Shown in pieces: positions 11,325-59,290 of a stretch of 64,000 bases of DNA. Both the position numbers and the translations under genes were made by a program. Under the pieces are notes generated by a model. That model ran no database searches and was not told the DNA's origin. It saw only the letters and a program-made list of their open reading frames with translations. The stretch covers positions 51,966,935-52,030,934 of the forward strand of contig CM026395.1 of assembly GCA_014843695.1 (NCBI GenBank). Direction: 5' to 3'. Source of the stretch: Archivesica marissinica (lineage: Eukaryota; Mollusca; Bivalvia; Venerida; Vesicomyidae). How positions within the stretch are numbered: position 1 is the first letter of the stretch; each line of letters opens with the position of its first letter.

Positions 11325-11333
11325 GCGCAATTA

Positions 11334-11451
11334 GTTTATACACATTTATTTTGGCTCGATTGCGAAATAAGTTCCTAGGGAGAGACTATAGGCATGTGGA
11401 ACTTAAATTCCTTGCACAGCTGGGCGTGAACTCCGGGCCTTTCGCACCTGG
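11334..11451 (-). mobile_element. 3' part of a SINE B split by the 31-kb insertion
   Basis: The minus-strand SINE B tail (tagtttatacacatttattt, cgattgcgaaataag) and body end at tttcgcacctg. In the reference copy the next bases are aagcgaacgcgc; here they are found at 42741, after the 31-kb insertion. The SINE's own duplication, gcgcaatta, lies at 11325-11333. The body carries internal deletions. Confidence 0.85.
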
Positions 11452-12265
11452 ACCCCGTTTTATCAACAACGTCGGTCGCAAGTCGGTCTTATCTTAAGAC
11501 CGCTACTTGCGACGTTTCCTGTGACACTCGTACGACCGTTTTATCAACACGGTCGTAAGTCTTCGGTCACAGCTAAGATTTTCTTTCGTCGTACGACCTT
11601 AAAAACAGTGACACAGTCCGAAATGTAAACTTCCGGTGCACGCATCTTCGCGCGCAAATGTAACATCGGACATGTTTAAAACACGGCGCCCCTGTATATA
11701 TTATTCATAACTTCTTTATTTCTTGGAATATGTTAATATTTCTTATATCGAATTAAACCTTACGCGCAGGCCTCTCCAGACATGCAATATATATTAAATC
11801 CAATATGACGTAGTTGGTCAAATCCGTAGAAGAGATTTTTTAACACGCCGGTATTGGAAAGGAAAACACGGCCCCACTAAATCTTCCTTGTTACTGTGAA
11901 TGTATAATCTATTTCAGTATAACTGGTATGATTCCATCGTGCAACAATATTTTAAATCTGATACGTTGTTTTCATATATTGAATTGTTAAACATTTCAGA
12001 CTTTTTATTATACTTTAAATAACTTATACATCGTTTTTGCGTAAATGCAAAACAGTGCTCCCACCCCAAAACTTCTTTGCTAATAGGATAATGTTGTTAA
12101 ATATTATTTCATTTTCAAGGGTATGTTCCAGATTTGTGTCTGTAAATAATGTTGAGGCAATTGAATAGGGCCTACGGTATTTACATGTTACCACACTATC
12201 TAGTGACGTAAATACTGAATAGACTCCATTCATTAATACACACTTTTGTATCAGCATGTCTTTTT

Positions 12266-13265
12266 CACAGGGATTCGGCACGTTTGGGAGTACTAGTATA
12301 TATATTTAAGTACAGGGATTCTACTCTGTGGGATGTCAGATTTCGCATCGATCAGTAAAATGGCCATATCTGAAACAATTTTGTACAAAGCTGTCCAAAT
12401 ATAACGCCTATCCCGAGTCTTTATATTGTTCTTCAAATAAAACACAACTTTAAGCTGCATGCATGTATACTTTGCAAACAATTGCCACATACATTGGCCA
12501 TAGCAGGTCACATTTCCATACTAGGACACGGGTTCTGTCAGCAACAAAAAAAAATCTTCGACTGGAGAGTTTTAACTGTGAATAACATTATCAATAAAAT
12601 GTGTTTCCACTAACCTGTATGTTTATTCGGCAAAAATGTACGTCAAAAAGAGATTTCGTAGCATTTTCAATTTGTTTTGAAAATTTCTAAAGCGGCGCAA
12701 TTCGCGTTGAAACCAGCGTTGAAACGAGCGTTCTGATTGGATTATTAGAATGTAACAAGATGTTTTTTTATATATGAAGAACAATCATAATCCAATCAGA
12801 ACGCTCGTTTCAACGCTCGTTTCAACGGGAATTGCGCCGCTTTAGAATTTTTCAAAACAAATTGAAAATGCTACGAAATCTCTTTTTGACGTACATTTTT
12901 GCCGAATAATCATACAGGTTAGTGGAAACACATTTTATTGATAATGTTATTCACAGTTAAAACTCTCCCGTCGAAGATTGTTTTTGTTGCTGACAGAACC
13001 CGTGTCCTAGTATGGAAATACGACCTGCTATGGCCAATGTATGTGGCAATTGTTTGCAAAGTATACATGCATGCAGCTTAAAGTTGTGTTTTATTTGAAG
13101 AACAATATAAAGACTCGGGATAGGCGTTATATTTGGACAGCTTTGTACAAAATTGTTTCAGATATGGCCATTTTACTGATCGATGCGAAATCTGACATCC
13201 CACAGAGTAGAATCCCTGTACTTAAATATATATACTAGTACCCCCAAACGTGCCGAATCCCTGTG
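12266..13265. mobile_element. 1000-bp palindromic DNA transposon, 8-bp TSD
   Basis: The element is almost entirely two inverted arms (12266-12745 and 12787-13265) around a 41-bp centre. The ends read cacagggattcggcacg. It is flanked by gtcttttt at 12258-12265 and 13266-13273, and the sister sequence at 39920 has this 8-mer once, uninterrupted. The 8-bp duplication fits hAT, Mutator-like or P superfamilies; the very long arms favour a foldback Mutator-like element. It has no coding capacity. Confidence 0.85.
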
Positions 13266-13380
13266 GTCTTTTTATAACGGCGATTCTAGCATATATAATA
13301 TACAAATGTACAAGCTGTCATAGACTGGTCATACATTAGTCGTATATATCTGTGTGATGAGATTAATAGATCAAATACAG

Positions 13381-13691: not shown

Positions 13692-13699
13692 TCATATGG

Positions 13700-14569: not shown

Positions 14570-14760
14570 TGACTAATATCATAGTCTTTCAGATGAGAAT
14601 TTAAACAGAGGTCTTGTGCCGGTGCTTTACACAATGCAAATAAAAGAACCAGAGGAGACATCATTGCACTATCCTCCAAATCTAATATAACTAATCTCTT
14701 CAGTAGGTGTCGCTATAATGGGCAACTGGTAACTATGATAAATAAACGTAAAACACTCAC
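14570..14760 (+). mobile_element. SINE V body without a tRNA head
   Basis: The sequence ctttcagatgagaatttaaa, then aaaagaaccagaggagac, then cactatcctccaaatctaat and gataaataaacgtaaaacac parallels the complete SINE at 58997-59277. The central cagatgggacgttaaaccga word of that copy resembles the conserved domain of V-superfamily SINEs. The inverted sister copy is at 36010-36215. Confidence 0.65.
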
Positions 14761-15673
14761 AGGTATTCATGTATTATGTATATCAACATATATATTGCAT
14801 CGGATTGCTTTGTGTAATGTTACAGCTTCTGTTACAGTGTAGTGGGAAGTATATTGAAGCAGTTACATTTTCACACCAAAGTCTGTCTGTCACACCCTAT
14901 GCAATCTGATACAACAACTTATATTTACTGTGAATCTATTTTCGTGTTTTGTTGCATCAACATTTCTGATTTCATATTGAAGATTTGTTGCACAAGATAT
15001 AGATTGAAGATCTGTAGTGAACACAGTATGATAGCTAATCTTGTTTGTACACAGGCTTCAATACCATATAATTATCAGGGTGTTTTCATGCACATCTAAT
15101 TTTGCTTGTTTGGCATACATGTGCCTTATTATATAGTTTCAAAGTTTCAAAGTTTTATTTGTTTAAATCCAGAAGGTCTCAGACCCATGTGGCATACATG
15201 TACATATACACAAATATGGCGACAGCAATTCATTATATCAATATATCTAATTAATTATATAATACTAAAGCAAATATTTATATGTGATAATATGTTATAA
15301 TATAGATGAAAAAATCTTTAATAATATAAGTTACGTGGGTACATTGCATCTTAATATATACATTAAAATTAGAACGTACAGAAAATGGTACAAATTGCAG
15401 GAAGATTGACTTGAATAGATTGGAGAAACAATAAATAACACGTAGTACTCTATTAATTTATTCTAACTACCAATTTCAAGCATTTCTGCATTACATAACG
15501 TTCCATGCAAAATATTTGACACTAAAGTATATGTATATTCTTTTATTCTTAACACCAATAACATTTACTTGTACTTACCATGTTTATGAAAGACGTCTAT
15601 TAAGGTACATAAATCAAGTTATATTGGTATTATATTGGACTTATCATATAACATATTATATTCTAACACGTTA

Positions 15674-17972
15674 TTATCTAGTATACAACTCATTTGTCCT
15701 AAGGGTAAATGATTTTTCTATATATATACTTAAATTTTTAATAACCTGTTTATTTTCACTATTAATTAATTCAACAAATTTATGCATATTGGGACGCCTC
15801 CAGTAATATCTCGGAATAAACAGCTTTCTCAAATCACAATACAAGTTACATTCTAATACAAAGTGAAATTCATCTTCTAGACTATTACATGAGTTACATT
15901 TTCTTTCATTTACTGGTGTACTTAATGGTTTTGTCCATCGACCAGTTTCAATAAAAAGTCTGTGTGACGATAAACGTAAACGGGCTAAACATACACGAAA
16001 TTTCTTAACAGTAACAATATCTAAATACGGTTGAAACCTATGATGTGAAACATATCTATAAAATAACGCCCTACTCGATTCGTTCAGTCTACCTGACCAG
16101 TTTTGTAAGAACTGGTCTTTAATTCTTTGTTTTACAGTAATTAAAAATAAGTCAACATTTCCAACATTTTGAGAAAGCCAAGCTTCATAAAACCCAAGAG
16201 TACATAATAAATCTCTAATTAATGAACACAAGTGTGTCCTGTTAGGGTAAGCTGTTGCGTCTTGCATCAACATTAAATACACTTTTTTAGCATATTTATC
16301 TTCATTTGTACTTAAAATCTTACTCCAAAATTTTATAATATTGAAATATCTCATATTCTGTAGTGGCAATCTACCTAAATCACCGTAAATAAAATCATTT
16401 TGTGTGTTTTTCTTTACTCCTAATAAACGTTTGCAAAATTGCATATGTAATCGTTCTATCGACTTACCTTTATGAAAACCCCATATTTCACTGCCATAAT
16501 TAAGAATGGGTAAGATTAGCTTATCAAACAAGTTTAACCTATGTTTAACAGATATATCAGTAAACTTATATAAATATTTTTCCACTTTAAAAATAGCTTT
16601 AAGTGCTTGACCAGCTAATGTACTTTGAGCTTCAGAGAATGAGCCACCTGTAGTGAAAACTATACCAAGGTAAACAAATTTATTGACAATTTCAACAATA
16701 CAACCATCATAATAAAAGTTCATGTTTTCTGGTAAACGACCACCTTTCCTGAATATCATAACCTTGGTTTTGTTGGTATTAACCACCAGTTTCCCTTTAT
16801 TACAATATTCCCGTAATAAATCTAGACTACCTTGTAATTCTGCACTATTAGTTGCAAATATGACTATATCATCAGCATACAGTATTAAAAACACTTTGAA
16901 CATATTAACATCGATACAATCAAACCCATGTTTAATAAACATATCTTCGATGTCATTGATATACATTGCAAAAAGGAAAGGTGATAAACATTCACCCTGT
17001 CTAACGCCTAGCATGACTTCGAAACTGTCACTTAACTGGTTATAATACTTAACTCTTGATTTCACAGCTATATACATCGATTTAATAATGTTTAAAATGT
17101 TTCCTCTGATACCTAGTTGAATTAATTTGGACCATAAATGATCACGATTTACATAATCAAAGGCTTTACTAAAGTCTATAAATGCACAATATAAATGCTT
17201 ACCACTATTAATCACATGATTTATTAAACCATGTAAAACAAAAATATTATCCACCGTACCTAATTTCGAACGAAAGCCTGCCTGTGCCTCTATATACATA
17301 CTATAAATGTCAGCCCATTCTGTTAATCGGTTATTTAAAACACTTCCCTAATGTACTAAGCAATGTTATTCCTCTATAGTTATTTTCATCATTTATACTG
17401 CCCTTTTTATGTAACGGAACTACAAAACCATCTGACCAGGACTCGGGAAAATACCCAATTTCAAAAATCTTATTAAATAATGATAGTAAATATGGCAGTA
17501 AAATACATTTACCATGTACAAAGAACTCATTTAAGTACAAATCAGGACCGCCACTTTTATTTGGGCTTAACTGATTAATTGCTTTTAACACATTTTCTGT
17601 CGTAATTGGTAAATTTAATTCTTCAAACATAATATTAAACTCCTCTCTTTCATATCTATCAACAACATATAAGACATCTTCATCGGGACTAAAGAAATGA
17701 TCATCAGGGTTATTCACTGATTTAAAATATTGTTCAAAAACATCCAATGAAATATTAGATTCCTTAACACCAGCACAGTTCTTAAGCATTTTCCAGTACA
17801 ACTTTGCATTTTTATGTTTGGCCTCTATTAATTTACTAGTTTCACTTTTGTCATACTCATATCTAGCTTTACGTAAACAACTTTTATATTGTGATCTAGT
17901 ATTAACCATGTATATTCTATTTGTTTCCGTTTTGTCTACCCTATTAAATTTAACGCAGCGTTTATAAAACAA
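15674..17972 (-). pseudogene. LINE1 ORF2: reverse transcriptase and C-terminal region
   Basis: Two minus-strand frames (17972-17331 and 17299-15674) together encode the RT half of ORF2. The first ends in the NYRGITLLS motif. A frameshift near 17340 separates it from the second, which has FIDFSKAFD (residues 40-48), a VRQGECLSPFLF stretch (99-110), the catalytic YADD (141-144) and, near the C terminus, a C-x2-C...H-x4-C zinc-knuckle-like motif. The product would copy its own RNA at a nicked target site. The frameshift and the upstream stop at 18140 make this copy inactive. Confidence 0.85.
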
Positions 17973-18139
17973 TCGTCACTTGTCATCACATTCTGATGTA
18001 TACCAGTTCTGTCCGACTCAACTTAAAATAAGGCGCTAGTATTATATAAATTGTTTAAACAAAGGGAGGACAACGCAATCAATAATATCAGATTAGATTA
18101 AAAATACAACTATTAATATCGTCTATTACAATGCTTTGA

Positions 18140-18404
18140 CTATATTGTAGGAAACGCTTCTAACTTAACTTGTAGTAGTATTTGAAGAAAGCTATCAATT
18201 ATTCGTTGAAGTCCTCTGTGCCATGTATACTTATAGTCTATATGCTCGTGTTCTTTATTTTCAGGTTTAATATTCAATCCTGGTACATCAAATACTAATG
18301 TAAAATCAACTAAACAGTGATCAGATAATATACTAGGATCAGCAATATTAAAATAATCAACATACTGAAATAAATTCTGTGTGCTAATAACATAGTCAAC
18401 AACA
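18140..18404 (-). pseudogene. LINE1 endonuclease, C-terminal fragment
   Basis: Minus-strand translation starting at 18404 begins VDYVIS and contains LSDHCLVDF, the conserved SDH block at the end of the APE endonuclease. It continues without a stop to TAG at 18142-18140. It directly continues the endonuclease fragment that breaks off at 22948; the two halves are in frame once the 18405-22947 transposon and one ACA are removed. Confidence 0.8.
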
Positions 18405-21400
18405 TAGTAGGGTTCTTTTAAAAGAAAAATGTCAAATAAAGGAATTAATTCCTACAAAGGCGATTTTTGGTATATGCAATATATAGGGTGTTTTACCTAA
18501 TATAGTAAAAGTCCACCACAGTCTTCCGATGTTAAATGCCCTTTTTTGGGGTAAAAAGTTGAAAATGTAGACGAAATGGTAAATTTCTGGAATCCGCCCA
18601 TAACTTCATCCATATTTGTCTGAGGAAGTTGAAAATTGCCAGGAATGTATAAATGAATATTGCGCAAATACTAGAGACATTATCGTTTTCGAAAAAAAAT
18701 CCAATATGGCTGCAAAATCCAAAATGGCCGCCAAAAATGTCTTTTTTCAAGCTTTACCGACACAGTTTTCATTAGCTAGCTTAATGTTTATTGTAAATAT
18801 TCATGACGCCACATGTTTATATCAACAATTGATGCAGAGAAGCAGATAGAAGAATTCAAAAGAGCGCAAAGTATTTGATTGACACTCTTCACAACCTCGG
18901 TTTCTGCTGTAGTTACAAAGAGGTTCAGAGATATGAACAAAACGCTGCTGTCAGTAACTACTCCGATATACCCGGACATACTTCAGACCAATTTGTGCCG
19001 ACAACGTTGACCACAATATCCAGACTATAGATGGCCATGGAACCTTTCATGGAATGGGTGTCATTGCAGCAGCGACGCCAGGTGGAACATGTAATAAAAC
19101 TATTCCCAGACTGAAGATATCAATGACTGAACTAAATGAGATTGGCAAGATCAATGTGCACTTTTATAGTCCAACGAAAAGCTCCGATATGAGTTATGGA
19201 ACGTTATCTGAACTTCCCAGTACCATGGATGATACATCAAACATAGATATCCTCTGGAAGACGACGTGGTTGTTAAAAGATGATCGAACATCTTGGAGTG
19301 GAAGCATGCAAAGGATTAATACCAATGGTGAATACCCAGGTCAGCCATCAGTAGTATTCATGCCCATGATTGATCTCAACCCAAGCGACGAGACATGTAT
19401 ATATATATTCAACGCTGATCTGGGTCAGCCAGCATGCAAAGCAATATAATGTGACGCCTGTGTTAACATTCGACCAACCTCTGTGGTTCAAGGCAAATAT
19501 GATTGTTAGTACAGAACCATCCAGCAGTGATGTCAGTAAGGTTGTTGTTCGATTAGGAGGATTTCACACGGAAATGAGCTTCCGTGGTGCTGTTGGACAC
19601 ATAATGAATGACTCGGGTCTCCAGGAAGTAATCACAACAGTGTATACGGAAAAGGCAGTGAGTCATATGCTTACCGGAAAAGCTGTAGCTAGAGACTTAA
19701 GAGGTCATGGACTGGTTGACATGGCCCTCCAGTCACTCATAGTGTGTGAAATGTTTAATCTCGACCTGATTGGTAGAGATCTGGATAAAACTGATGGCCA
19801 GGAACACGAAGCAGAAGGAATTTATCTTGAGGACATTGAGAATGTCGCACAGAGCAGTTCACAATCTGTAGAACATGAGGATAGTATTCCACAGCATCAC
19901 AATGATAGTACCTCAACACATGGGAAAAGTAAGAATATCTCTGATGAGATGAGGAATGATACAGTTTCGAAAACTGATAGAGAATCGACAATGGATGGGA
20001 TTTCGCATGAGATTGACGCTGATTTAGAATATGCTCTGGAATTGTTTGACAATGTATTGACAGGAGAAATAGGCATAGAACAGGCATGTAAAGATGAAAT
20101 AGTCACAAAAATTCAAAGCAGAATGGATGCATATTGTGACAAAATACCAGCTAACAGTAGAACAGCACGATTGTGGTTGCAATATATTGAAATGGTGGAA
20201 TTACTGAGAGAATTCATAAAAGCAGAGCGAACAGGAAACTGGCAGTTACACCTGAAGACATTAAGGGCCATGTTACCATATTTCACAGCATCTGGGCATA
20301 ACTTATATGCCAAATCAGCCTATTTGTATCTAGTGAAAATGAATGCCTTGCAGAAAACACACCCACAGCTCTATGAATATTTCATGAAAGGGTTTCATGT
20401 TGTTAGACGGAGTGATAGGTATTGGGCTGGATTGTCGACAGGTCTAATGATTGAGCAGGTGCTTATGCGGAGTTTGAAGAGTGCAGGGGGACTGACTCGA
20501 GGTAGAGGAATGACTGAGATACAAAGAGCCGTGTGGGTACTCTCTCGACCTGCAACATCGTCTATTAATGAAGCAATGCAAACCTTCTCTGGTACGATAT
20601 ATACCTCAAGTGAACAACACAAAGATACATACTTATCAGTGCGAAAGCGATATAAAAATGACATGCAAGTGGTAACCGAGTATCTACTTGAACGAAACCC
20701 ATTCAAAACCGAAAATGATCTCAAAAGCATAACAAGTGGGGTAGTGTCGTATGACAGTACTGCTGATCAGGCAACGCAGATTGGAGAGAATATTGTGACA
20801 AAGATGGCTGGCCAAAAAGTAAACGAGTTCTCGTTCAAGAGGAAAGATGCAGTCGTGCCTATGAATGATAAATCTGCGTTCAAAATTGACGAAGATACAG
20901 TCAAGATCGACCCTCAGTTGTTGTTCCAGAGATTAGTTAGTGTGGCTAACAGAATGACTAATGAACCCGATCTTCCACTTACATATGAGTTATGCACACA
21001 CCCACCGGCATTATTTGAATCATCCATACAAATGAGAGTAGCAGACAAACCTGTATTAGGGAATGCTATGAAGTCAGCCGACAATCCTAGTCCGAGAACA
21101 CATGATCCTGGTGATAGTTATCATGTTGTTGATGGTGGTATGTTGCTGCAGTGGATTCCTTGGGAAAGTGGTCAGATATTTGAAGAAATGTGTTCTACAT
21201 ACGTCCAGTTTGTGCAGTCTAGGTACACCAATTGCATTGTTGCCTTTGATGGTTATGACAATGGGCCAACTACTAAAGACAGCACTCATGGTCGTAGAAC
21301 TGCAGGAATGGTTGGTACAGAAGTAAGATTTACCCAATCCAGCACATTTAGAGTGAAAAAGAAAACATTTCTAGCTAACCCAAACAACAAACAGCTCTTC

Positions 21401-22947
21401 ATAAACATGTTGTCAGGGAAAATGAACAGTGAGGGCATAGAAACATCACACGCCGTTGCCGATGCCGATTTACTCATCGTATTAACAGTTGTACGCCGTT
21501 CACATTCAAAACCAACCATATTGGTCGGAGATGACACTGACCTATTGGTGTTATTGTGTTATCACACATCACATGACTTGCACCCTGTATATATACAGCC
21601 TAGGCCCAAATTCAACCGTAGTATATGATGGGATATACACAAACTACAAGCGTACCTTGGCGACGATGTTTGTAGGAACATATTGTTCTTACATGCTGTG
21701 TTGGGGTGCGATACGACGTCAAAAGTGTATGGCTTAGGAAAAGGGACTGTTCTGAAAGCATTTGAAAAGAGTGAAGTATTCCGTCATGTGGCATCAGTGT
21801 TTCATACACCACCAACAGAGGTGACAAAAGAGAATATTATCAGCAGTGGGGAACAAGCTCTCGTGTATCTATACAAAGGCAGTCGTGGAGAAACATTGGA
21901 CAGCTTACGTGTGAGCAAGTTTGTCGATAAGGTAGCCAAAAGTACCATGTTTGTTGATCCGAAACACAGCTTGCGAGTTTACCTGCAAGTACAGGACTGG
22001 AAATGTGATGATGCACTGAATCCAACGGACTGGGGCTGGGAACTAGTTGGAGACAGGCTATTCCCTGTGACAACTAGGAAAGGTCCAGCTCCAGTACATA
22101 TACTGAAGGTTGTGCGTTGTACTTGTTCTAGTGGCTGTAAAACAAAGGCATGCAGCTGCAAAAAAGTTGGCCTTGAATGTAGTGCTGCATGTAGTTCCTG
22201 CAAAGGATTTAGTTGTGAAAATTCAGTACATCCAGACTTTGAACCTGACTACTAGCAGTTTACATTGTGCATAACTGTCTGCACATAAAATAGATTTGTA
22301 ATCATCTTGGAATGTGAATTTGATAGTACGCTAATTGAGAACCAGTACCAGTTTTAACATTTCCTATGTTTGTTTTCTGCGACCACATTGTCAAATCCAG
22401 ATTATTACAATAATGTATACGCGTAATATTCATTGATGCTAATTTGCATAGTTCTGTGTTTTGATGCCATATTGGATATTCTAAATTGACCAGCAGCAAT
22501 GGACTCTCATGACCTTTTCACATGTTGTATTTCACATTCTATACAATAAATACACCATACAATTGTTTATGTAGGACACCATTACTTTGTATATGTAAAA
22601 ATATTGCTATATCTTGAAAAACGAATTTTCGGCGGCCATTTGGATTTTTGCCACCATATTGGATTGTTTTTGAAAACGGTAATGGCTTTAATCTATGCGC
22701 AATTTATATTTATACTTCCATGGCCAATTTTAACTTCCTAAGACAAATAAAGATGGAGTTATGGGCGGATTCCAGAATTTCGCAGTTTTGTTTATATTTT
22801 CAACGTTTTACCCCCAAAAAAGGCATTTAGCATCAGAAGACTGTGGTGGACTTTTACTATGTTAGTTAAGACACCCTATATATTGCATATACCAAAAATC
22901 GCTTTTGTAGGAATTAATTCCTTTATTTTCATAAAAGAACCCTACTA
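18405..22947 (+). mobile_element. 4.5-kb nuclease-encoding DNA transposon, ACA TSD
   Basis: The terminal inverted repeats start TAGTAGGGTTC and extend imperfectly for about 350 bp; both copies contain ggaattaattcctacaaa and atatgcaatatatagggtgt. The element is flanked by ACA at 18402-18404 and 22948-22950, inside a LINE endonuclease that becomes continuous when the element is removed. It carries one long, damaged gene for a FEN1/XPG-like nuclease. Short 3-4 bp duplications and an XPG-type nuclease recall Academ elements, but I see no DDE transposase domain, so that assignment is tentative. Confidence 0.8.
18860..22255 (+). pseudogene. FEN1/XPG-like nuclease with C-terminal CXC domain
   Basis: Homology is visible in three frames from about 18870: an N-terminal part ending in TSDQF, a frame with HGTFHGMGV (about 19030-19400), and a long frame from about 19410. 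Nuclease signatures follow in order: VVDGG (about 21124), VAFDGYD (21239), VADADLLIV (21458), GDDTDLLVLL (21527) and LGCDTTSKVYGLGKG (21704). The last matches the GCDY...GIG helix-turn-helix region of FEN1/XPG enzymes. A cysteine-rich CXC (tesmin-like) segment lies at 22119-22230. Frameshifts near 19005 and 19400 and an in-frame TGA at 21626 inactivate it. Similar uncharacterised proteins are, from memory, common in marine invertebrates. Confidence 0.75.
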
Positions 22948-23681
22948 ACACTTGACCCTCTATTTCCAACAAATGTATAGCAACCAATATTTTTGTCGTT
23001 ACCAAATCGACCGTTTAAAATACGTAAACCTGTTTGTCTACACAAATCCAACAAAACTAAACCATTATTATTCAAGCGGCCTTTATCTTGTGAATAACGT
23101 TTAATATATCCATCAGTATAATAATCGTCTGGCAAAACATCAACATGAGAGTAATTATCATCAACGACATAGTCTGGACACTCAGAGGTATGCGAGTTCA
23201 TATCGCCGCATAGAATAAAATTAAAACCATTTTCATGTTTTGAATCTAAACTAACAATATGCTGGAATAATATGCCATAGGTACTGGATTCGATCATGGT
23301 TTGTCGGCTGCTCTGTTCAGGTATAATGTAGCATAAACAAACAAATAAGTCATTATGTAGGCCAAGTTTAAAACCGTTTATCTTAATACAAATAATATCA
23401 TCTTCACTATGAAAAATTGCAGTATCACAGGAGACGAACTCATTTCTAACGTATATAATTATACCACCTGAGGAGCGTTTGCTAGAGGCTTTATTTTCTG
23501 ACCTGTTTAGATTAAAATGCTCGAAACATTCAACAGATAAATCCGAAAATTGATTGGCCCAAGTTTCCGTAAATAACACAATGTCATGATTGTTAAATAT
23601 ATTTTTTATTTCTGGAGACAGTAATTTATTTGTCCGTTTTGTTGAAATACCCTGAATGTTCAATAATGCACAACGCAGCAA
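22948..23681 (-). pseudogene. LINE1 endonuclease, N-terminal fragment
   Basis: The minus-strand frame starts with an ATG at 23681, 26 bp after the ORF1 stop, a typical LINE ORF1-ORF2 spacing. It carries the APE blocks LNIQG, LFTETW, FILCGDMNSH and CYTFVG. It breaks off at 22948, where the DNA transposon begins, and resumes at 18404. The enzyme would nick the target DNA to prime reverse transcription. Confidence 0.85.
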
Positions 23682-23707
23682 GACCTTCTCAGTGTTGACC
23701 TATTGTC

Positions 23708-25549: not shown

Positions 25550-25868
25550 TATAGATCAACAATAGTATGCCTTTAATCAAAAGTTTATCCACAAAAATTA
25601 TAGGAAACTGTTATTTTATCACTTTTTTCGTCAATAAACAAAGAACGCGACTACGCTGTCCGCCATATTTAATTGCACATATATATATTGTTTGCTTTAT
25701 TTGTGGAAACCTTAAATCACAAAAATTAAGACCGGAAATTTCTTTCATAATTTTTAAAACTGTGCCGCTTGTCTATATGGAATCTTAATAGCTATAAAAG
25801 AAAAGTACCAAACAGTATTCATTTGTATCACTGGATAGTTGCACAGTTTTCATCAGTTTTCAAGATTT

Positions 25869-30100: not shown

Positions 30101-30982
30101 AAGTCAAGTTCAGGTTTTTTGTTTTTTAGTGATTGAAAATTTAGGCTTATGATTTTTAAGGGTCGTTTGACGCTTTTTGTCTTTTGTTTGGGTTTGTTAG
30201 TATTCTGATTTCTTGGGCTCCTATGGGTATGGTTGTCTGACGTTGTTTTATTTGCATCTGGTTTAGGGGATGAACAGGCAGTAGGTTTTCCGGGACTATC
30301 ACAACTTAGAATTGAGAAGTTATTTGAAGATGTAATTGGATCATTTTGGAAGTATGAGCTTGTGAAATTTGGTAAACCACACTTGAGACAATGCCATGAT
30401 AGGTTACTGTTATCCATTAGAGCATGCATTGTATTAGTCATCTGTCCTTGACAATTGATATGGTACCAGGTTCTGCAAGAGTCACATTCCAATGCTTTGG
30501 ATTTCCAGGTGACTGCTTTGCCACATGTACCACAGGGCCATCTTGGCGTTCTAGGGCCCGGGTTGAGTTCGACTTGGTTTCCAAGTAACAGTTTGATGAG
30601 TAAGTGGTAGTTTTTGTCCGAAGGCGGTAGTATGTGTTTTGTGCAGAAGAATGGTTTTCTGAGATGGATAGCCAGTGGAAGATACTGAGGCATTTGTCTT
30701 TTTGAAGAATGGGCGGGTCCGGGTCTGGGAGTGTGATTTGGTAGTCAAATAGTGGGGAGCAGCTACTTGTTGGACGGTCATATGTTTCCTTGTTGTGATA
30801 AAATGTCCGTGTTTTTGTAACGCAGAATATGAGGATCAAACCTAACAGTTTGTACATGAGTGCCATTTCCGGGTCTGGTACAGGTGGTGCTCGAGTACAG
30901 GAAATGTGAGAATAATTACATACACAAAACACACACACAAATGTTACACACATATGGTGGTTATCTTCAGCCCGAGGAATTT
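27189..30982 (-). mobile_element. CR1-like LINE (LINE2) plus a 100-bp module in the left arm
   Basis: In the right arm, SINE D runs straight into SINE C (gtcggatttggtatcaaac at about 34100). Here the same point is split by about 3.8 kb, with ggattt on one side and ggaattt on the other. The block holds the 100-bp module shared with the foldback element (27189-27290) and a minus-strand LINE whose coding remnant spans 30953-27367. The proteins are of CR1 type: PHD-like finger, APE endonuclease, RT. Confidence 0.75.
27367..30953 (-). pseudogene. LINE2 (CR1-like) polyprotein remnant
   Basis: Order on the minus strand: LNPGPRTPRWPCGTC with a PHD-like zinc finger ending in CDSCRTWYHINC (about 30600-30440), an endonuclease start KIISLNFQSLKNK (about 30150), an intervening region (29526-28975), and RT (28883-27786) with MDFAKAFDKVSH (152-163), PQGTVMGP (211-218) and FADD (240-243). 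A C-terminal KYSFYPRAVTQWN block sits at 27663-27367. At least four frameshifts or stops (near 30560, 30060, 29020 and 27780) make it a pseudogene. Confidence 0.85.
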
Positions 30983-31661: not shown

Positions 31662-32079
31662 TTTTAAGACTTTTTCCGAAGTTGCGACTGCATCGAACCA
31701 GTCGTAAAGTTAAGACTTTATTTACGATATCTTAGCTGCGACTTTGTTGATAAAACGGACCGTGGTCTTAACTAAGACGTTACGACGGCGTAACTCGGTC
31801 TTAAGCAATTCTTAACTAAGACTGACTTACAACCCACTCAGTTAAGCAATACTCTTAACTAAGACTGACTTACGACCGTTGACCCAGGGCCCCGTTTTAT
31901 CAACGGTCGTAAGTCAGTCTTAGTTAAGATTATTGCTTAAGACCGAGTTACGCCGTCGTAACGTCTAAGTTAAGACCACGGTCCGTTTTATCAACAAAGT
32001 CGCAGCTAAGATATCGTAAATAAAGTCTTAACTTTACGACTGGTTCGATGCAGTCGCAACTTCGGAAAAAGTCTTAAAA

Positions 32080-32290
32080 ATGGCGGCCGAATCAGCAGAA
32101 TCCGTGCATCAGAGACGTGATGCAAGAATATTCAGGGCCGGTAGAGACATTGGAGACGTGTGACACCAATATCCTGTCCCGATATCGCAGGACGAGGCTA
32201 TGGATTGTCTTGCTTGATGATATGGTGGGGGAATGACTTGGACAAGGGGACCAACCACTCTCATTCGATACCCGGTTTGACCTAGGTAAA
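32080..32290 (+). pseudogene. Harbinger transposase N-terminal exon, right outer monomer
   Basis: The plus-strand ATG at 32080 lies about 190 bp inside the 5' terminal repeat and starts MAAESAESVHQRRDARIF. It carries the same frame change after GRDIGDV as its two sister copies. No DDE exon follows in this monomer before the inner insertion. Confidence 0.45.
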
Positions 32291-32599
32291 GTGAAATTGA
32301 TATATTTCTATATCTTGCATTATTAAGGTGCAAATCAGTGTTATTTGCGTACACATTTCTGTACAGTAGGCCCTTATTTCTATTTTAAGATTACAAGGGA
32401 GGCTACTTCCATAAGAATCTATTGCTATTTATACTACACACAAGTCATGACTTATTATGTTTTTGGAACTGAATGACGATACGTATTATGTTTCTGCAAC
32501 GCATTAACTAAGTAAATTGATACAGTTGTGCAGGTAGGGAATTAAATGCTTGTGTTTATAATGTCGTCTGTTTCTTTTTAAATGCTCGTGTATTGCTAC

Positions 32600-32750
32600 A
32601 GTACTGTGTGTTTTGCGTTTATTTATCGTCGCTACCGGTTGCCCATATGAGCGACGCCTCCTGAAGAGATTAGTTATTTTAGATTTTGGAGGATAGTGCA
32701 TAATACAGACAGAGACCAATTCCAGAATCTCCTCTGGTTCTTTTACGTGA
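32600..32750 (-). mobile_element. SINE V fragment
   Basis: The 3' tail (tttatttatcgtcgctaccg) and part of the body (ctcctctggttcttttacgt) are present in minus orientation. It is fused to sequence equivalent to 39020 onward, which marks the internal deletion of the outer monomer. Another tail fragment follows at 33062-33155. Confidence 0.6.
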
Positions 32751-33408
32751 TCTTGGCAATTCTATGATAATTCTATTCCATATATGCGAGGATTAAAAAC
32801 TGCATTACCCATATTATCAGTAATGTTACAAGTGTCAAAACCATATGTATTATAAAATTATATTGGGGTATATTTGCAGTGACATTATAAATAATGAAAT
32901 TTAGAATAGTTCCGTTGTTTTATTTCTACTTCCTAACATCCATGATTGTGCTGGTTATAATTAGTTTCAATATAACTTACCGACCAAGTTAACTTGACAA
33001 CAATTTGGTAGTTAAAGCGACCATTTATCATCGTCTTTGATCTATTGTGTTTTTGAGCTTAATTATCGTCGCTACCGGTTGCCCATATGAGCGACGCCTC
33101 TTGAAGAGATTAGTCATTTTAGATTGTTGAGGATATTGCAGTGATAGAGACAGAGACGGAGTATGTGGTCGATTGGTTAATGTTGTTGACTTCGAATCAC
33201 TTGCCTCTCACAGCTGGGCCCCGTTTTATCAACGGTCGTAAGTCAGTCTTAGTTAAGATTATTGCTTAAGACCGAGTTACGCCGTCGTAACATCTAAGTT
33301 AAGACCACGGTCCGTTTTATCAACAAAGTCGCAGCTAAGATATCGTAAATAAAGTCTTAACTTTACGACTGGTTCGATGCAGTCGCAACTTCGGAAAAAG
33401 TCTTAAAA

Positions 33409-33620
33409 ATGGCGGCAGAATCAGCAAAATCCGTGCAGCAGAGACGTGATGCAAGAATATTCATGGCCGGTAGAGACATTCGAGACGTGTGACACCAATA
33501 TCCTGTCCCGATATCGCAGGACGAGGCTATGGATTGTCTTGCTTGATGATATGGTGGGGGGAATGACTTGGACAAGGGGACCAACCACTCTCATTCGATA
33601 CCCGGTTTGACCTAGGTAAA
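33409..33620 (+). pseudogene. Harbinger transposase N-terminal exon, inner copy
   Basis: The plus-strand ATG at 33409 starts MAAESAKSVQQRRDARIF, about 190 bp after the 5' terminal repeat. It has the same frame change as the other two copies. The DDE fragment of the same copy is at 35259. Confidence 0.45.
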
Positions 33621-33981
33621 GTGAAATTGATATATTTCTATATCTTGCATTATTAAGGTGCATATCAGTGTTATTTGCGTACACATTTCTGTACAGTAGG
33701 CCCTTATTTCTATTTTAAGATTACAAGGGACGCTACTTCCATAAGAATATATCGCTATTTATATCGATACTACACACAAGTCATGACTTATTATGTTTTT
33801 GGAACTGAATAACGATACGTATTCTGTTTCTGCAACGCATTAACTAAGTAAATTGATAGTGTGCAGGTAGGGAATTAAATGCTTGTGTTTATAATGTCGT
33901 CTGTTTCTTTTTAAATGCTCGTGTATTGCTACAGTATTCGTACACATAATTAAACGTCCCCACGTGTCCAAATGCAAATGT

Positions 33982-34108
33982 TTTCTTGGACAGGCTTAGC
34001 CGACCTAAGCGGTTAACCAGTACTAAACTATATCTGTGAGGTGACTTGCTCAATGACACTACATACGTGGACTGACCGAGTATCGAACATGGGACAGTTT
34101 GATACCAA
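33982..34108 (-). mobile_element. SINE C copy (right arm)
   Basis: This is the reverse complement of 30983-31105. It joins directly to SINE D at about 34109, giving the uninterrupted arrangement that shows where LINE2 landed in the left arm. Confidence 0.7.
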
Positions 34109-34250
34109 ATCCGACACCATGCCACGGACGCCCGGAGGAAATCGTCCTGTTCAACCTGTCACCGTACCATATCACATACTGTCCATCGAACCAGGGTTGA
34201 ATTGGTGAGAAGCGAACATGGCTAACTACTGCGCGAATTGGACAGCCAAA
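34109..34250 (-). mobile_element. SINE D copy (right arm)
   Basis: This is the inverted sister of 27045-27188, with the B-box-like ccctggttcgatgg on the minus strand and the ggtgtcggattt junction with SINE C. A small deletion (cctcggaat) distinguishes it from the left copy. Confidence 0.6.
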
Positions 34251-34689
34251 AGAAGTGTAATCCATATTACAAGTTGTCATGATTGATCTTAATGCGATGA
34301 TAGACACGATGAGTCGGGATGACCATAATTATATATAGATACACTGTCCAGTTTGAAATCAATCTTCTTCTTCTTGGTGATTTCGGCACTCCCTCAATAT
34401 AATAATCGGAATATATCGAACTCTGTGTTTACATGTATATTGGGTTACAAACTACTACCACAACCAATGACCACACAGTTGCATTGTAATATAATTATAG
34501 GGTGTTGAAAACACTGACTGTTTTATGTATCAATAATAGTTGAAACGTTTTGTTCATTTCAGATGCTTATTGATTTAGATACCTATCAAAGGGTGATGTA
34601 TTGTCCAAAGTCGCAGATTTTCATGGCATCAACAGGTAGGTGAAGTCTTTTCGACATGATCATTAATTGCTACGTTTATTCGATTAGCT

Positions 34690-34840
34690 GTCTGATTAGC
34701 GTAGTGATTAGCACGCTCGCTTCTAGTCAATGCATTCCGGGTTCCTTACACTGACTGAGAAGTGTGTGAGATGGTATGGTGGTCCCCAAATCGGACATGT
34801 GAGTTTTCTCCGGTTATGTCCCACACGAATGACTACATAA
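34690..34840 (+). mobile_element. SINE E copy (right arm)
   Basis: This is the inverted sister of 26500-26665, with tRNA-like ttagcgtagtgattagcac and the body gttttctccggttatgtccc. Confidence 0.55.
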
Positions 34841-35258
34841 TTATACGCTTTCAACGAGAGTGCTTAATATTATAATCTTGTTTCGAAAATGTTGTAAAGT
34901 AAATAATATTTATACAGTTGATTATTCTAACATTAACAATGAAGAACAATGTAAAAACACAAAAGTTAACCATATTTTGTTCAAAAACAGAATTAGGCCG
35001 AACTCCAAATATATTTAGTTTCGTCACAGCAACCCAGATTTATGGAATAGTTTCCATCTTATTAATGTACATACACTGTACTAATCACTTATATATTGTT
35101 CTTAAAAAATTTAATATCTGTCAGGTCCACCCTCACAAATGCTTAATATTAATGATGCATGTCCAAATTTTGTTCACAATCATTCCAGTGTTCAAATTTA
35201 TCAGATAGAAATGTAGAGCTTTGATGTTAATAGAGTTTTTATATGTTATTTCTTGCAG

Positions 35259-35487
35259 ATTCCCTGGTGATATGGCTTTAATTGATGTACAGCAGGATTT
35301 TTATCGGAAGTGCCATATTATACATAATACAGTTGGCTCAGTTGATGGTCTATTGATCTATGAGTGTGTGATAGCATGGCCAAGAAAATCAAGAGTGGAC
35401 AACACTATTTCAACAGATCAGTTCATGCCTCTGTCAACACCACTTGATTTAAGGACACTAATCTTAGCTGTCATATTTACAGTTTAG
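35259..35487 (+). pseudogene. PIF/Harbinger transposase DDE fragment, right arm
   Basis: The acceptor-like tatttcttgcag at 35247-35258 precedes a frame with FPGDMALIDVQQDFY and NTVGSVDG, matching the region around the first catalytic Asp of Harbinger transposases. The following AWPRKSRVDN block resembles the WPGS-HDS block but is too close, indicating an internal deletion. The left arm shares the deletion, so it predates the palindrome. Confidence 0.65.
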
Positions 35488-35647
35488 AAATCTTGAAAAC
35501 TGATGAAAACTGAGCAACTATCCGGTGATACAAATGCATACTGTTTGGTACTTTTCTTTTATAGACTATTAAGATTTCATTTTGACAAGCGGCACAGTTT
35601 TAAAAATTATGAAAGAAATTTAAGGTTTTCACAAATAAAGCAAACAA

Positions 35648-35672
35648 TTGATATATATATATATATATATGT
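35648..35672. repeat. (TA)n microsatellite at the LINE1 empty site
   Basis: A short run of AT dinucleotides lies between gtatgcc and caattgtttgc. The corresponding site in the left arm received LINE1. Confidence 0.85.
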
Positions 35673-36009
35673 ATGCCAAACAAGCAAAATTAAATGTGCA
35701 TGAAAACACCCTGGTAATTATATGGTATTGAAGCCTGTGTACAAACAAGATTGTCTATCATACTGTGTTCACTACAGATCTTCAATCTATATCTTGTGCA
35801 ACAAATCTTCTTTTACTATGAAATCAGAAATGTTGATGCAACAAAACACGAAAATAGATTCACAGTAAATATAATTTGTTGTATCAGATTGCATAGGGTG
35901 TGACAGACAGACTTTGGTGTGAAAATGTAACTGCTTCAATATACTTCCCACTACACTGTAACAGAAGCTGTAACATTACACAAAGCAATCCGATACAATA
36001 TATATGTTG

Positions 36010-36215
36010 ATATACATAATACATGAATACCTGTGAGTGTTTTACGTTTATTTATCATAGTTACCAGTTGCCCATTTTAGCGACACCTACTGAAGAGATT
36101 AGTTATATTAGATTTGGAGAATAGTGCAATGATGTCTCCTCTGGTTCTTTTATTTGCATTGTGTAAAGCACCGGTACAAGACCTCTGTTTAAATTCTCAT
36201 CTGAAAGACTATGAT
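36010..36215 (-). mobile_element. SINE V body (right arm)
   Basis: This is the reverse complement of 14570-14760: tttatttatcatagttacca, ctcctctggttcttttattt and the cattgtgtaaagcaccggt block. Confidence 0.65.
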
Positions 36216-36512
36216 TTTAGTATGGTATAGCGGGATTTTTCTTTCTTGTTACTACGATATAATTATAAGAGGATATGTGTTTGTTTCAGTGTATGATTGA
36301 ATAATATTTCACCAAATGAACATTGAAAGCATTATTACCAAGTGTGAAGCTAGTCACGAGTGGTATTAATAGCTTTCTATGTTTTTGAGTAAAGTATTAT
36401 TCGATCATTCACTTAACAAACAAATTTTCTTTTTATTTTGGCTGAAAAGTGTTTTTATGATAGAAAATGATGCAACTGTGCCATGGGCTGAATCGTACTT
36501 AGACAACAATAT

Positions 36513-38507
36513 AGAATATACTGAAAACAATAATGTTCCTGGTCTTTTATTCTTTGCCGATTTTGAAAAAGCGTTCGACAGCCTGAACCATAAGTTTATG
36601 CAAACGGTACTAGATATATTTAATTTTGGCCCTTTCCTAAAAGAATGGATCAAACTTTTCTACAATAACCCTTCAAGTTGTGTGTTATATAACGGTTTTT
36701 TGTCAGAGTCATTTAGCATAAAAAGAGGGGTTAGACAAGGTTGTCCTTTATCACCGTATATTTTTATATTAGCTATCGAGTTACTATCCATTGCAATACG
36801 TAATAATAATGATGTGAAAGGTATATCAATGTCCGACAAAGAAGTGAAAAATAGTATGTTTGCAGACGATGCCACTATTATTTTAGATGGCTCTAAGAAG
36901 AGCTATTCAGAAATGTTACAAATGTTTGATGACTTTGCATGTATTTCAGGCCTAAAACTTAATTATGATAAATGTTCAGTTCTCAGAATAGGGTCTATTA
37001 GGAATCAGCATGATCTTATTTACTGTAGAAAGAAGAATGAAAAAATACAATGGACTCCAGAAAGTGCTAAAACGTTGGGTATCATTTTCCATGCAAAACC
37101 AAAACAAATACTTCATTTAAACTATGAACAACGAATACATCAATTCCATACCGATATAAAAAGATGGAAAGCTAGAAGACTAACTACAATAGGTAATATC
37201 TCAGTGTATAAATCATTAATATTACCAAAATTAACATACTTATTCTCTGTCCTCCCAAACCCATCTGATGAAACTTTAAACATGTTAACTCAAAACAGCT
37301 ACGAATTTATATGGAACTCAAAAAGAGATAAAGTAAAACGTAACGTTGTAATACAAGACTTTAAATAAGGAGGGTTAAACATGATTGATATCAAGTTATT
37401 TCTAAACTCCACAAACCAATCAAAAGAATAATCAATGTGTCGAATAAAGGTGCATGGAAATTTATAATAAATAAACAGCTACAAAAAATAGGCGGATGGC
37501 TTTTATTTCGAAGTAATATAACAACAAGAGACACAATGAAATTAAAAATTACAAGTACATTTTTAAAAGAAATTTTGATAGCATGGAGCAAAATCAACTA
37601 TGACAAAGACCCCCAACACATACAAACGCAGATACTTTGGAATAACTCACATATAAAAAATAATAACGATACTATGGTATTCCCTCATTGGATCAACAAA
37701 AACATAATTTATGTCAAAGTCATCTATAACATGGATACCAAAACATTTAAAACTCTAAAAGATTTAAATACGGAATATCAAATATCTAACACTGAATTCC
37801 TCAATTATTATAAATTAATAGCATCAATTCCCAAAGAATGGATAAGGAAGCTGGAGAGTGTTGGTGACTTTGATACTCCTACTGACAAGATAAATGCATA
37901 TGAAATCTTAGATAAGACAAATACAAGCTATATGAATAAAAAACTTACTGAAATACAAAAAATGAAAAACTTACAAGATAAGACAAAATCACAAATAAAA
38001 TGGGAACTGATTTTCCCGCAAAAACAGTTCAGTTGGAAAGATATATATACTAAGGCTTTTGAAATTTGCAAGGATAATATTCTTCAAAACTTTCAGTACA
38101 ACTTCCTACATAGAAATATAGCAACTAACAAATTTTTATTCAAATGTAATTTAATTGAATCTAGCTTGTGTGATTTTTGTAGTATGGAAATAGAAAGTAT
38201 AGATCACCTGTTCTGGAACAGCACAAGATCGCAATGTTTTTGGAATGAATTATTTAAATGGATGGAGGATATTGATATTGATATAAATCAAGACAAATTC
38301 GATGTATATTTTCATACTAACAATAAAACAGTATCGTACATTTTATTATTTGCAAAATATTTTATACATACCTGCAAACAGAATAAGTTGTTACCTAACA
38401 TAATGATTTTTAAGCAAAAAGTAATTGCAAGAATTAAATTAGAAAAATATACAGCATTTCGAAACGATGAAATAGAAAAATTCAATAAGGATTGGAGTAA
38501 TTTTTAA
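36513..38507 (+). pseudogene. LINE3 reverse transcriptase and C-terminal region
   Basis: The frame 36513-37368 has FADFEKAFDSLNH, GVRQGCPLSPYIF and FADD (about 37 codons apart), and ends at a TAA inside QDFK*GGLN. A second frame, 37437-38507, supplies the C-terminal region with a CDFC...H...W zinc-knuckle-like block at about 38170-38220. A frameshift near 37400 separates them. The apparent start at 36379 lies in Harbinger arm DNA, so the first 45 residues of that open frame are not LINE protein. The element lacks its endonuclease and ORF1. Confidence 0.8.
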
Positions 38508-38822
38508 TCAATATATATAACAAGCCGAAGTAGATCTCTCTTCTTCTTTTTTTTCTCTCTCTTGCGATATTTAGACAAGACTATTATTTTTCTATTTTTT
38601 GTGTTAATTTTTCTCTGTTTTTTCACATGCTTTGTCTAAACATAACATTCTTATATATTGAATTATGTAATGTATTGTATACATATGTAAATGTAACTGT
38701 TTTGTACAAATTTCATTACTATGTTCTTTGTAAGGTACAAGTGGGATGGCCTCGACCCGCTTGCTACCTACGACGAGGAAAATAAACGGACCTTAAACGT
38801 GGCTCAAAAAAAAAAAAAAAAA
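36513..38822 (+). mobile_element. 5'-truncated poly-A LINE (LINE3)
   Basis: Absent from the left arm, where gacaacaatatgtgac is continuous (reverse complement of about 14228-14243). The insert starts inside the RT domain and ends with a poly-A run of about 19. It is flanked by aatat on both sides (36508-36512 and about 38823-38827), though the poly-A makes the duplication ambiguous. Poly-A tail and RT sequence suit the L1/Tx1 group. Confidence 0.85.
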
Positions 38823-39436
38823 AATATGTGACATAATAAATGACTTTGCTCGAGTCCTTAAACGTACGTGCTGCCAACATTTCAACAAACACATTCTTTG
38901 TACCACAAATACAAAGCATTGTTACTTTTAGCATCCTACTTAAACCTTTTCATTATGTATGTTGTTGTCTGTTATATGTGTTTTATGGTTTGCAATACAT
39001 ATTGTTTAAACCAATTCATCTTGGCAATTCTATGATAATTCTATTCCATATATGCGAGGATTAAAAACTGCATTACCCATATTATCAGTAATGTTACAAG
39101 TGTCAATATGTATCTCTATATGTATTATAAAATTATATTGGGGTATATTTGCAGTGACATTATAAATAATGAAATTTAGAATAGTTCCGTTGTTTTATTT
39201 CTACTTCCTAACATCCATGGTTGTGCTGGTTATAATTAGTTTCAATATAACTTACCGACCAAGTTACTTGACAACATTTTGGTAGTTAAAGCGACCATTT
39301 ATCATCGTCTTTGATCTATTGTCTTTTTGAGCTTAATTATCGTCGCTACCGGTTGCCCATATGAGCTACGCCTCTTGAAGAGATTAGTCATTTTAGATTT
39401 TTGAGGATATTGCAGTGATAGAGACAGAGACGGAGT

Positions 39437-39700
39437 ATGTGGTCGATTGGTTAATGTTGTTGACTTCGAATCACTTGCCTATCACAGCTGATGTTTAGAC
39501 TCTCACCAGGGGTGTCGGATTATTTCGTGCAAGGAAACTATTCGTAATGTTTGTGGTTCTACCCAGGCAGGTGACCTTTCACACTTGACATACTGTATGG
39601 AGGGGCGCCCGGGATCTTCCTCCACCAATAATAGCTGGAAAGTCACCATATTACTTGAGTTGTTGGTGATACATTAAACCCCAAAAACAAACAGAGACCC
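39437..39700 (+). mobile_element. SINE A with a tRNA-Ser/Leu-like head
   Basis: The head (tggtcgattggttaatg, then gacttcgaatcacttgcc) is followed by the full body: cagctgatgtttagactctc, ggttctacccaggcaggtg, the satellite-source segment ccaccaataatagctgg at about 39622, and the tail aaaccccaaaaacaaacaga. A SINE V tail fragment abuts it at 39340-39430 (minus). Confidence 0.7.
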
Positions 39701-40740
39701 ATGCCAGAGTATTATCTGGTTTTTTTACGTGAACGGTGTTATTCACGGACTTAAAGACTGATGATCGAACCTTGGATCTACAGACCAATATGTTCACCAC
39801 TGAATTATTGACCCCTCTGTATTTGATCCATTAATCTCATCACACAGATATATACGACTAATGTATGACCAGTCTATGACAGCTTGTACATTTGTATATT
39901 ATATATGCTAGAATCGCCGTTATAAAAAGACATGCTTATACAAAAGTGTGTATTAATGAATGGAGTCTATTCAGTATTTACATCACTAGATATTGTGGTA
40001 ACATGTAAATACCGTAGGCCCTATTCAATTGCCTCAACATTATTTACAGACACAAATCTGGAACATACCCTTGAAAATGAAATAATATTTAACAACATAA
40101 TCCTATTAGCAAAGACGTTTTGGGGTGGGAGCACTGTTTTGCATTTACGCAAAAACGATGTATAAGTTATTTAAAGTATAATAAAAAGTCTGAAATGTTT
40201 AACAATTCAATATATGAAAACAACGTATCAGATTTAAAATATTGTTGCACGATGGAATCATACCAGTTATACTGAAATAGATTATACATTCACAGTAACA
40301 CGGAAGATTTAGTGGGGCCGTGTTTTCCTTTCCAATACCGGCGTGTTAAAAAATCTCTTCTACGGATTTGACCAACTACGTCATATTGGATTTAATATAT
40401 ATTGCATGTCTGGAGAGGCCTGCGCGTAAGGTTTAATTCGATATAAGAAATATTAACATATTCCAAGAAATAAAGAAGTTATGAATAATATATACAGGGG
40501 CGCCGTGTTTTAAACATGTCCGATGTTGACATTTGCGCGGGAAGATGTGTGCACCGGAAGTTTACATTTCGGACTGTGTCACTGTTTTTAAGGTCGTACG
40601 ACGAAAGAAAATCTTAGCTGCGACCGAAGACTTACGACCGTGTTGATAAAACGGTCGTACGATTGTCGCAGGAAACGTCGCAAGTAGCGGTCTTAAAGAT
40701 AAGACCGACTTGCGACCGAAGTTGTTGATAAAAAGGGGCC

Positions 40741-42737
40741 CCGATGTTTAGACTCTCACCGGGGGTGTCGGATTATTTCGTGCAAGGAAACTATTCGGAA
40801 TGTTTGTGGTTCTACCCAGGCAAGTAACCTTTCACACTTGACATACTGCATGGAGGGGCGCCCAGGATCTTCCTCCACCAATAATAGCTGGAAAGTCACC
40901 ATATTAATTGAGCTGTTGGTGATACATTAAACCCCAAAAACAAACAGAGACCCATGCCAGAGTATTATCTGGTTTTTTACGTGAACGGTGTTATTCACGG
41001 ACTTAAAGACTGATGATCGAACCTTGGATCTACAGACCAATGTGTTCACCACTGAACTATTGACCCGTCTGTATTTGATCTATTAATCTCATCACACAGA
41101 TATATACGACTAATGTATGACCAGTCTTATGACAGCTTGTACATTTGTATATTATATATGCTAGAATCACCGTTATAAAAAGGCATGCTGATACAAAAGT
41201 GTGTATTAATGAATGGAGTCTATTCAGTATTTACATCACTAGATATTGTGGTAACATGTAAATACCGTAGGCCCTATTCAATTGCCTCAACATTATTTAC
41301 AGACACAAATCTGGAACATACCCTTGAAAATGAAATAATATTTAACAACATATTAATATCCTATTAGCAAAGAAGTTTTGGGGTGGGAGCACTGTTTTGC
41401 ATTTACGCAAAAACGATGTATAAGTTATTTAAAGTTTAATTCGATATAAGAAATATTAACATAATCTAAGAAATAAAGAAGTTATGAATAATATATACAG
41501 GGGCGCCGTGTTTTAAACATGTCCGATGTTGACATTTGCGCGCGAAGATGTGTGCACCGGAAGTTTACATTTCGGACTGTGTCACTGTTTTTAAGGTCGT
41601 ACGACGAAAGAAAATCTTAGCTGCGACCGAAGACTTACGACCGTGTTGATAAAACGGTCGTACGATTGTCGCAGGAAACGTCGCAAGTAGCGGTCTTAAG
41701 ATAAGACCGACTTGCGACCGAAGTTGTTGATAAAACGGGGCCCCGATGTTTAGACTCTCACCAGGGGTGTCGGATTATTTCGTGCAAGGAAACTATTCGG
41801 AATGTTTGTGGTTCTACCCAGGCAAGTAACCTTTCACACTTGACATACTGTATGGAGGGGCGCCCAGGATCTTCCTCCACCAATAATAGCTGGAAAGTCA
41901 CCATATTAATTGAGCTGTTGGTGATACATTAAACCCCAAAAACAAACAGAGACCCATGCCAGAGTATTATCTGGTTTTTTAACGTGAACGGTGTTATTCA
42001 CGGACTTAAAGACTGATGATCGAACCTTGGATCTACAGACCAATGTGTTCACCACTGAACTATTGACCCGTCTGTATTTGATCTATTAATCTCATCACAC
42101 AGATATATACGACTAATGTATGACCAGTCTTATGACAGCTTGTACATGTGTATATTATATATGCTAGAATCACCGTTATAAAAAGGCATGCTGATACAAA
42201 AGTGTGTATTAATGAATGGAGACTATTCAGTATTTACATCACTAGATATTGTGGTAACATGTAAATACCGTAGGCCCTATTCAATTGCCTCAACATTATT
42301 TACAGACACAAATCTGGAACATACCCTTGAAAATGAAATAATATTTAACAACATATTAATATCCTATTAGCAAAGAAGTTTTGGAGTGGGAGCACTGTTT
42401 TGCATTTACGCAAAAACGATGTATAAGTTATTTAAAGTTTAATTCGATATAAGAAATATTAACATAATCTAAGAAATAAAGAAGTTATGAATAATATATA
42501 CAGGGGCGCCGTGTTTTAAACATGTCCGATGTTGACATTTGCGCGCGAAGATGTGTGCACCGGAAGTTTACATTTCGGACTGTGTCACTGTTTTTAAGGT
42601 CGTACGACGAAAGAAAATCTTAGCTGCGACCGAAGACTTACGACCGTGTTGATAAAACGATTGTCGCAGGAAACGTCGCAAGTAGCGGTCTTAAGATAAG
42701 ACCGACTTGCGACCGACGTTGTTGATAAAACGGGGTC
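40741..42737 (+). repeat. Two 1.0-kb tandem units: SINE A body to Harbinger 3' end
   Basis: Each unit begins atgtttagactctcacc and ends gttgataaaacgggg. Unit boundaries are at 40741-41742 (1002 bp) and 41743-42737 (995 bp). The related block at 39490-40740 is about 250 bp longer. Both tandem units share the same internal deletion (tatttaaagtttaattcg junction), so they duplicated after it arose. The second unit ends ggggtc, like the outer left end at 11452; the other two end ggggcc. Confidence 0.85.
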
Positions 42738-42776
42738 CTGAAGCGTACGCCCTACGACTGCGCTATCACGACTTCC
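42738..42776 (-). mobile_element. 5' head of the SINE B split by the 31-kb insertion
   Basis: CTG followed by aagcgtacgccc and tgcgctatcacgacttcc matches the SINE B head at 10955-10987. It continues the SINE that stops at 11451. The SINE's own target duplication, gcgtaatta, follows at 42777-42785 and differs by one base from gcgcaatta at 11325-11333. Confidence 0.85.
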
Positions 42777-42785
42777 GCGTAATTA

Positions 42786-59277: not shown

Positions 59278-59290
59278 TTACTAAATCAGA

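Follow-up and report, generated by a model that had tools for sequence, protein, structure and literature searches.

A 31.3-kb palindromic block within a bivalve SINE is probably a stepwise pile-up of Harbinger-related transposon copies

The window analysed here, a 64,000-nucleotide stretch of the genome of the bivalve Archivesica marissinica (GCA_014843695.1, contig CM026395.1, forward-strand positions 51,966,935 to 52,030,934; coordinates below count from its first letter), contains a minus-strand tRNA-type short interspersed element (SINE) that is interrupted exactly by an insert of 31,287 bp. The insert comprises three related copies of one DNA transposon family, whose Harbinger-related identity is supported by its CWG target sites, together with unrelated insertions, and it probably grew stepwise at one place rather than being one 31-kb mobile element. 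From left to right, the copies (E_L, E' and E) and the two pieces of the SINE, with their putative A-box and B-box sides, are the following.

11325-11450, minus strand: SINE body and tail (B-box side), ending in the target duplication CTG at 11448-11450 (sequence comparison)
11451-31884, minus strand: E_L, inverted family copy with its right-type end at 11451 and its left-type end at 31884, the latter 10 bp shorter than the other left ends (self-comparison)
31885-31887, no strand: spacer CAG, a 3-bp CWG triplet between two left-type ends and the centre of the palindrome (sequence)
31888-33216, plus strand: left part of E', a left-type end of ~715 bp followed by sequence like that of 39018-39490 up to the CTG at 33214-33216 (self-comparison)
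33217-40740, plus strand: E, full copy nested in E' at CTG, flanked by CTG (33214-33216) and CCG (40741-40743) (self-comparison)
40741-42737, plus strand: two tandem units of the right part of E', at about 40741-41742 and 41743-42737 (self-comparison)
42738-42785, minus strand: head of the same SINE (A-box side), opening with the target duplication CTG at 42738-42740 (sequence comparison)

The left piece of the SINE ends at 11450, the right piece restarts past the second CTG at 42741, and with one CTG taken out the two join into an unbroken tRNA-type SINE. Two further SINE copies of the window (within 10140-10375, plus strand, and 10735-11010, minus strand) cross the insertion point without interruption; one reads GCTTCAGGTGCG, identical to the predicted empty site, and the other reads GCTTCATGTGCG, one base different. 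Internal gaps distinguish these intact copies from the split SINE, so the empty site is paralogous, not allelic. The SINE's own flanking duplication agrees in 8 of 9 bases (GCGCAATTA/GCGTAATTA), and random pairs of places match equally well, with offsets of +-4 allowed, in 310 of 20,000 trials; this duplication is therefore supportive but not decisive alone. An earlier note on this DNA had proposed the split SINE and the CTG duplication on its near sides, both of which are borne out, as well as the SINE duplication on its far sides; the bounds of the insert are now set exactly at 11451-42737. An Rfam tRNA match at the SINE copy at 10172-10243 (23.7 bits against a cut-off of 29) fits a tRNA-type SINE and the A-box and B-box sides given above; all 13 Rfam matches in the window fall under the gathering cut-offs. 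To the right of the SINE, a frame at 43032-43565 has a weak DDE_3 match (E 7.6e-06, just under the Pfam cut-off) and is perhaps a Tc1/mariner-like relic.

The outer ends of the block are perfect inverted repeats over 71 bp, in agreement with the more than 60 bp claimed before. Self-comparison resolves the sequence between them into the three family copies and a tandem duplication of the right end. The earlier note had recognised two monomers around a centre near 31886; E_L and E' do stand head to head there, and to them are added the third copy and the tandem end. Unrelated insertions, namely three long interspersed element (LINE) blocks and a 1-kb foldback, make up about 17,665 of the 31,287 bp and heavily break up the palindrome, leaving about 13.6 kb of DNA that belongs to the family. 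The shortened copy E' has an internal deletion or rearrangement near 32603-32750. A repeat of ~100-150 bp, found in element copies and elsewhere (32600-32750, 33043-33157, 39320-39431, and 59137-59282), coincides with this internal deletion. Of the five junction triplets, CTG and CTG outside, CTG and CCG on either side of E, and CAG at the centre, four fit CWG. No assembly gap falls within the block, and two 1000-N gaps lie outside it (5748-6747 and 43938-44937). Long tandem arrays occupy 3799-10146, 44938-47281, 51427-53556, and 60587-61960, and each of the two gaps abuts an array.

The clearest proof that E is nested in E' comes from within E itself. The counterparts of the sequences flanking E (32750-33216 on the left, 40744 onward on the right) adjoin one another inside E, at 39018-39490 and 39490-40182, and the intact target, CACAGCTGATG, is found there at 39483-39493. 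At the centre of the block, the junction of E_L and E' reads GTTGACC-CAG-GGCCCCG, and a 3-bp CWG spacer is the leftover expected when one copy inserts into another's flanking target. The left end of E_L lacks 10 bp at this point, which indicates that the palindrome centre was reworked.

Three right ends are present, one in E that stops at 40740 and two more that stop at 41742 and 42737. Between the two tandem units, 6 of 992 sites differ, and 245 bp that E and E_L have are missing from both. Outermost, the middle right end is of E type at two sites and has no 8-bp deletion; further in, it is of E' type at three sites. Such a mosaic would be expected if unequal exchange had taken place between an end of E and one of E'. 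With ~0.3% change in each unit, the sequence suggests that the tandem duplication is young.

The family copies in the block differ by 1-5%, and E_L differs from E by 1.7% to 5.1% (Kimura two-parameter distance, six segments). Over the 1001 three-way sites of the left part (667 near the left end and 334 before the nested site), private changes number 21 in E_L, 3 in E', and 14 in E. Over the 963 sites of the right part they number 9 in E_L, 9 in E' (present in each tandem unit), and 12 in E; another three sites show a mixed pattern, and four carry a change seen in one tandem unit only. Taken together, E_L and E' have 30 and 12 private changes (p=0.008; left part alone, p=0.0003). Within the 334-site internal stretch, E' differs from E at 5 sites and from E_L at 14.

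The CWG targets fit the NuwaI group of PHIS, the PIF/Harbinger-related superfamily. In the available text of its description, this group has 3-bp CWG target duplications and ends that usually start with GGG, and its known hosts are animals, one mollusc among them (Han et al. 2015, PMC4482050). The block likewise has a 3-bp CWG duplication with a paralogous empty site, and the nested copy is one base off (CTG/CCG); the TWA target duplication of PIF/Harbinger elements in the strict sense is not seen (CTG/CTG). After CTG, the outer ends read GACCCCG and the inner left ends GGCCCCG; the ends here are GG(R)CCCC against the GGG of NuwaI when the last target G is counted, and the inner ends start with GGG only on that count. 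The copies differ from NuwaI as described in that text (PMC4482050) in the CCG triplet to the right of the nested copy, in the size of E (7.5 kb, or about 5.2 kb without its LINE, against a mean of ~4.5 kb for autonomous candidates), and in having no recognised DDE transposase or Myb/SANT protein in the frames searched. The Harbinger identity given by the earlier note is supported by the target sites, but the pieces searched yielded no recognisable transposase domain. One open frame in E is a candidate transposase relic only.

35209-35484, plus strand: open frame with the HARBI1-like first-D motif FYRKCHIIHNTVGSVDG (by eye)

By eye, this motif resembles the region of the first catalytic D in HARBI1. 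The inverted arm E_L carries a counterpart of the frame near 26036 (minus strand), and the one database homologue found for the frame is 97% identical and nameless. No second-D or E motif was recognised by eye among the loose matches, no transposase family matched five frames of E in Pfam (the best match was the unrelated bMG1, E 0.17), a PDB search of the motif frame gave only three weak unrelated matches, and no second open reading frame of Myb/SANT type was found in the five short frames of E scanned. The transposase is only a suspected relic, unrecognised by any library searched. A 17-base end pattern occurred in no stretch of viral contigs and in 25 stretches of bacterial and archaeal contigs (257 Gb), a number in the range expected by chance, for which an estimate assuming equal base frequencies gives ~60.

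The four unrelated insertions lie within E_L and E.

12266-13265, no strand: 1-kb foldback in E_L, arms 2.1% diverged, with 8-bp duplications GTCTTTTT (self-comparison)
15121-25678, minus strand: LINE with endonuclease and reverse transcriptase, in E_L, containing a 4.5-kb element (self-comparison and domain matches)
27189-30978, minus strand: LINE with endonuclease and reverse transcriptase, in E_L, with PHD and C1 matches just under the Pfam cut-offs (domain matches)
36513-38829, plus strand: LINE in E with reverse transcriptase, an A-rich tail, and a zf-RVT match under the Pfam cut-off (domain matches)

The foldback is a near-perfect palindrome and has sub-threshold matches to miRNAs; three of the 13 Rfam matches fall in it, as its hairpin would give. 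The 4.5-kb element nested in the first LINE (18405-22947) has terminal inverted repeats of ~340 bp that are 83% alike and, by eye, ends TAGTAGGG and flanks ACA/ACA. It encodes frames of 752 and 208 amino acids, neither with a Pfam match. Of 7991 candidates scored against the 752-amino-acid frame, 643 are homologues at E<=0.001, and some of the best 120 of these 643, from mussels and a sea cucumber, are named Tesmin/TSO1-like CXC domain proteins. Across the homology searches, the few named entries among the best 120 hits of each include Mytilus, Pinctada, Mercenaria, Argopecten, a sponge, echinoderms, a sea spider, an anthozoan and Branchiostoma. This element is possibly an undescribed DNA transposon family, for which no literature search was made.

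The earlier note had described the block as one 31.3-kb palindromic Harbinger insertion. Given three copies of the family, a right end duplicated in tandem and four insertions of other origin, this is not the simplest reading, and we disfavour a single 31-kb element. The block is, in our judgement, probably a pile-up that grew stepwise. A NuwaI-type PHIS element and a second, shortened copy would have inserted side by side at the same CWG site in the SINE, head to head, with one 3-bp target copy between them. A third, full copy (E) would then have inserted into the shortened copy at its internal CTG, and unequal exchange between like ends would have duplicated the right end. The LINEs and the foldback could have inserted at any time, before or after the copies came together. 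Since no intact transposase is seen in the copies, movement would have been in trans. Distinct, diverged copies with unequal private changes fit such sequential insertion. A PIF/Harbinger mosaic in Medicago, MtPH-M-2-IIa, offers a precedent: according to the available text of its report, it spans 21,696 bp between terminal inverted repeats and target site duplications, is explained by nested insertions, and, like the block, is a long bounded stretch in which a related element and fragments of the family lie together with a retrotransposon (PMC2213677). Neither a head-to-head pair around a 3-bp spacer nor a tandem duplication of an end is described in that text, and both distinguish the block (PMC2213677). 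The accessible part of a study in yeast likewise indicates that the mobility of PIF/Pong/Harbinger elements drops with element size, and proposes that larger elements self-insert (PMC10288884).

Several observations nonetheless weigh against stepwise growth. The right triplet of the nested E is CCG and not CTG, one base off a perfect duplication, and the same CCG recurs at the tandem junction (41743-41745). The centre reads CAG, where sequential insertion into a flanking target copy should have left CTG on this strand. Two variants are common to the two outermost ends and absent from the inner ones, and in the right part by itself E_L and E' have equal private changes. Any one of three events would explain the central CAG: a single base change, a flip of the palindrome centre, or movement of the whole block with a pre-existing CAG spacer. 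On the last explanation, a head-to-head pair with its CAG spacer would have existed elsewhere, and the two outermost right-type ends would have inserted everything between them at CTG; a centre unlike the flanking CTG/CTG, and outermost ends identical over 71 bp with their two common variants, would then be accounted for as well. Maize Ac, a hAT member, forms macrotransposons and composite insertions that offer a parallel. In the available text on these, up to 28 kb between ends is movable as a unit, and excision of a 28-kb macrotransposon was observed (PMC9910405). The maize insertions have an 8-bp target duplication and their movement was observed (PMC9910405); the target copy of the block is 3 bp, and its movement as a unit is hypothetical. 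Movement as a unit would also require the pairing of two right-type ends, a pairing backed by two terminal variants only, and it sits poorly with the lower mobility of larger elements in yeast (PMC10288884, as far as its accessible part goes). Weighing the maize precedent together with the Medicago mosaic and size-limited mobility, we favour growth in place and consider movement of the block as a unit unlikely. If it did occur, a PHIS element of >10 kb would have been mobilised in trans, defined by like ends and not by a left and a right end.

The pair E_L and E' might otherwise descend from one inserted element by inverted duplication in place, through breakage and fusion or aberrant transposition, with the copies diverging and losing sequence afterwards. 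The near-perfect palindrome at the centre, with its 3-bp loop and small central deletion, and the 9 and 9 private changes of the right part are what this would leave. Similar private counts would be expected throughout if the two copies arose from each other in place, and the 21 against 3 of the left part and the 30 against 12 overall therefore disfavour it, as does the 334-site stretch in which E' is nearer to E than to E_L. The internal rearrangement of E' and its 245-bp loss also tell against it, though both may be later losses. The contrast between left and right parts may reflect gene conversion, and because of this and the equal counts on the right the case against duplication in place is moderate; we regard such a duplication as quite improbable. 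That chimeric or palindromic reads led the assembly to join unrelated copies is highly improbable in our view. The surroundings are rich in repeats and two 1000-N gaps lie nearby, but the block itself is gap-free, its arms are 1-5% different and carry different insertions, and the two halves of the SINE are consistent with a single copy flanked by a duplication of its own.

We found no report of this arrangement among the papers listed by the literature searches, whose coverage leaves out most subscription journals. The stepwise pile-up would be a clear case of DNA transposon copies of one family landing in and next to each other, with target sites readable at each level. Movement as a unit, if true, would mean that PIF/Harbinger-type elements can move at larger sizes than those known so far. 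For now, the block is mainly a warning that long stretches bounded by terminal inverted repeats and target site duplications may be pile-ups.

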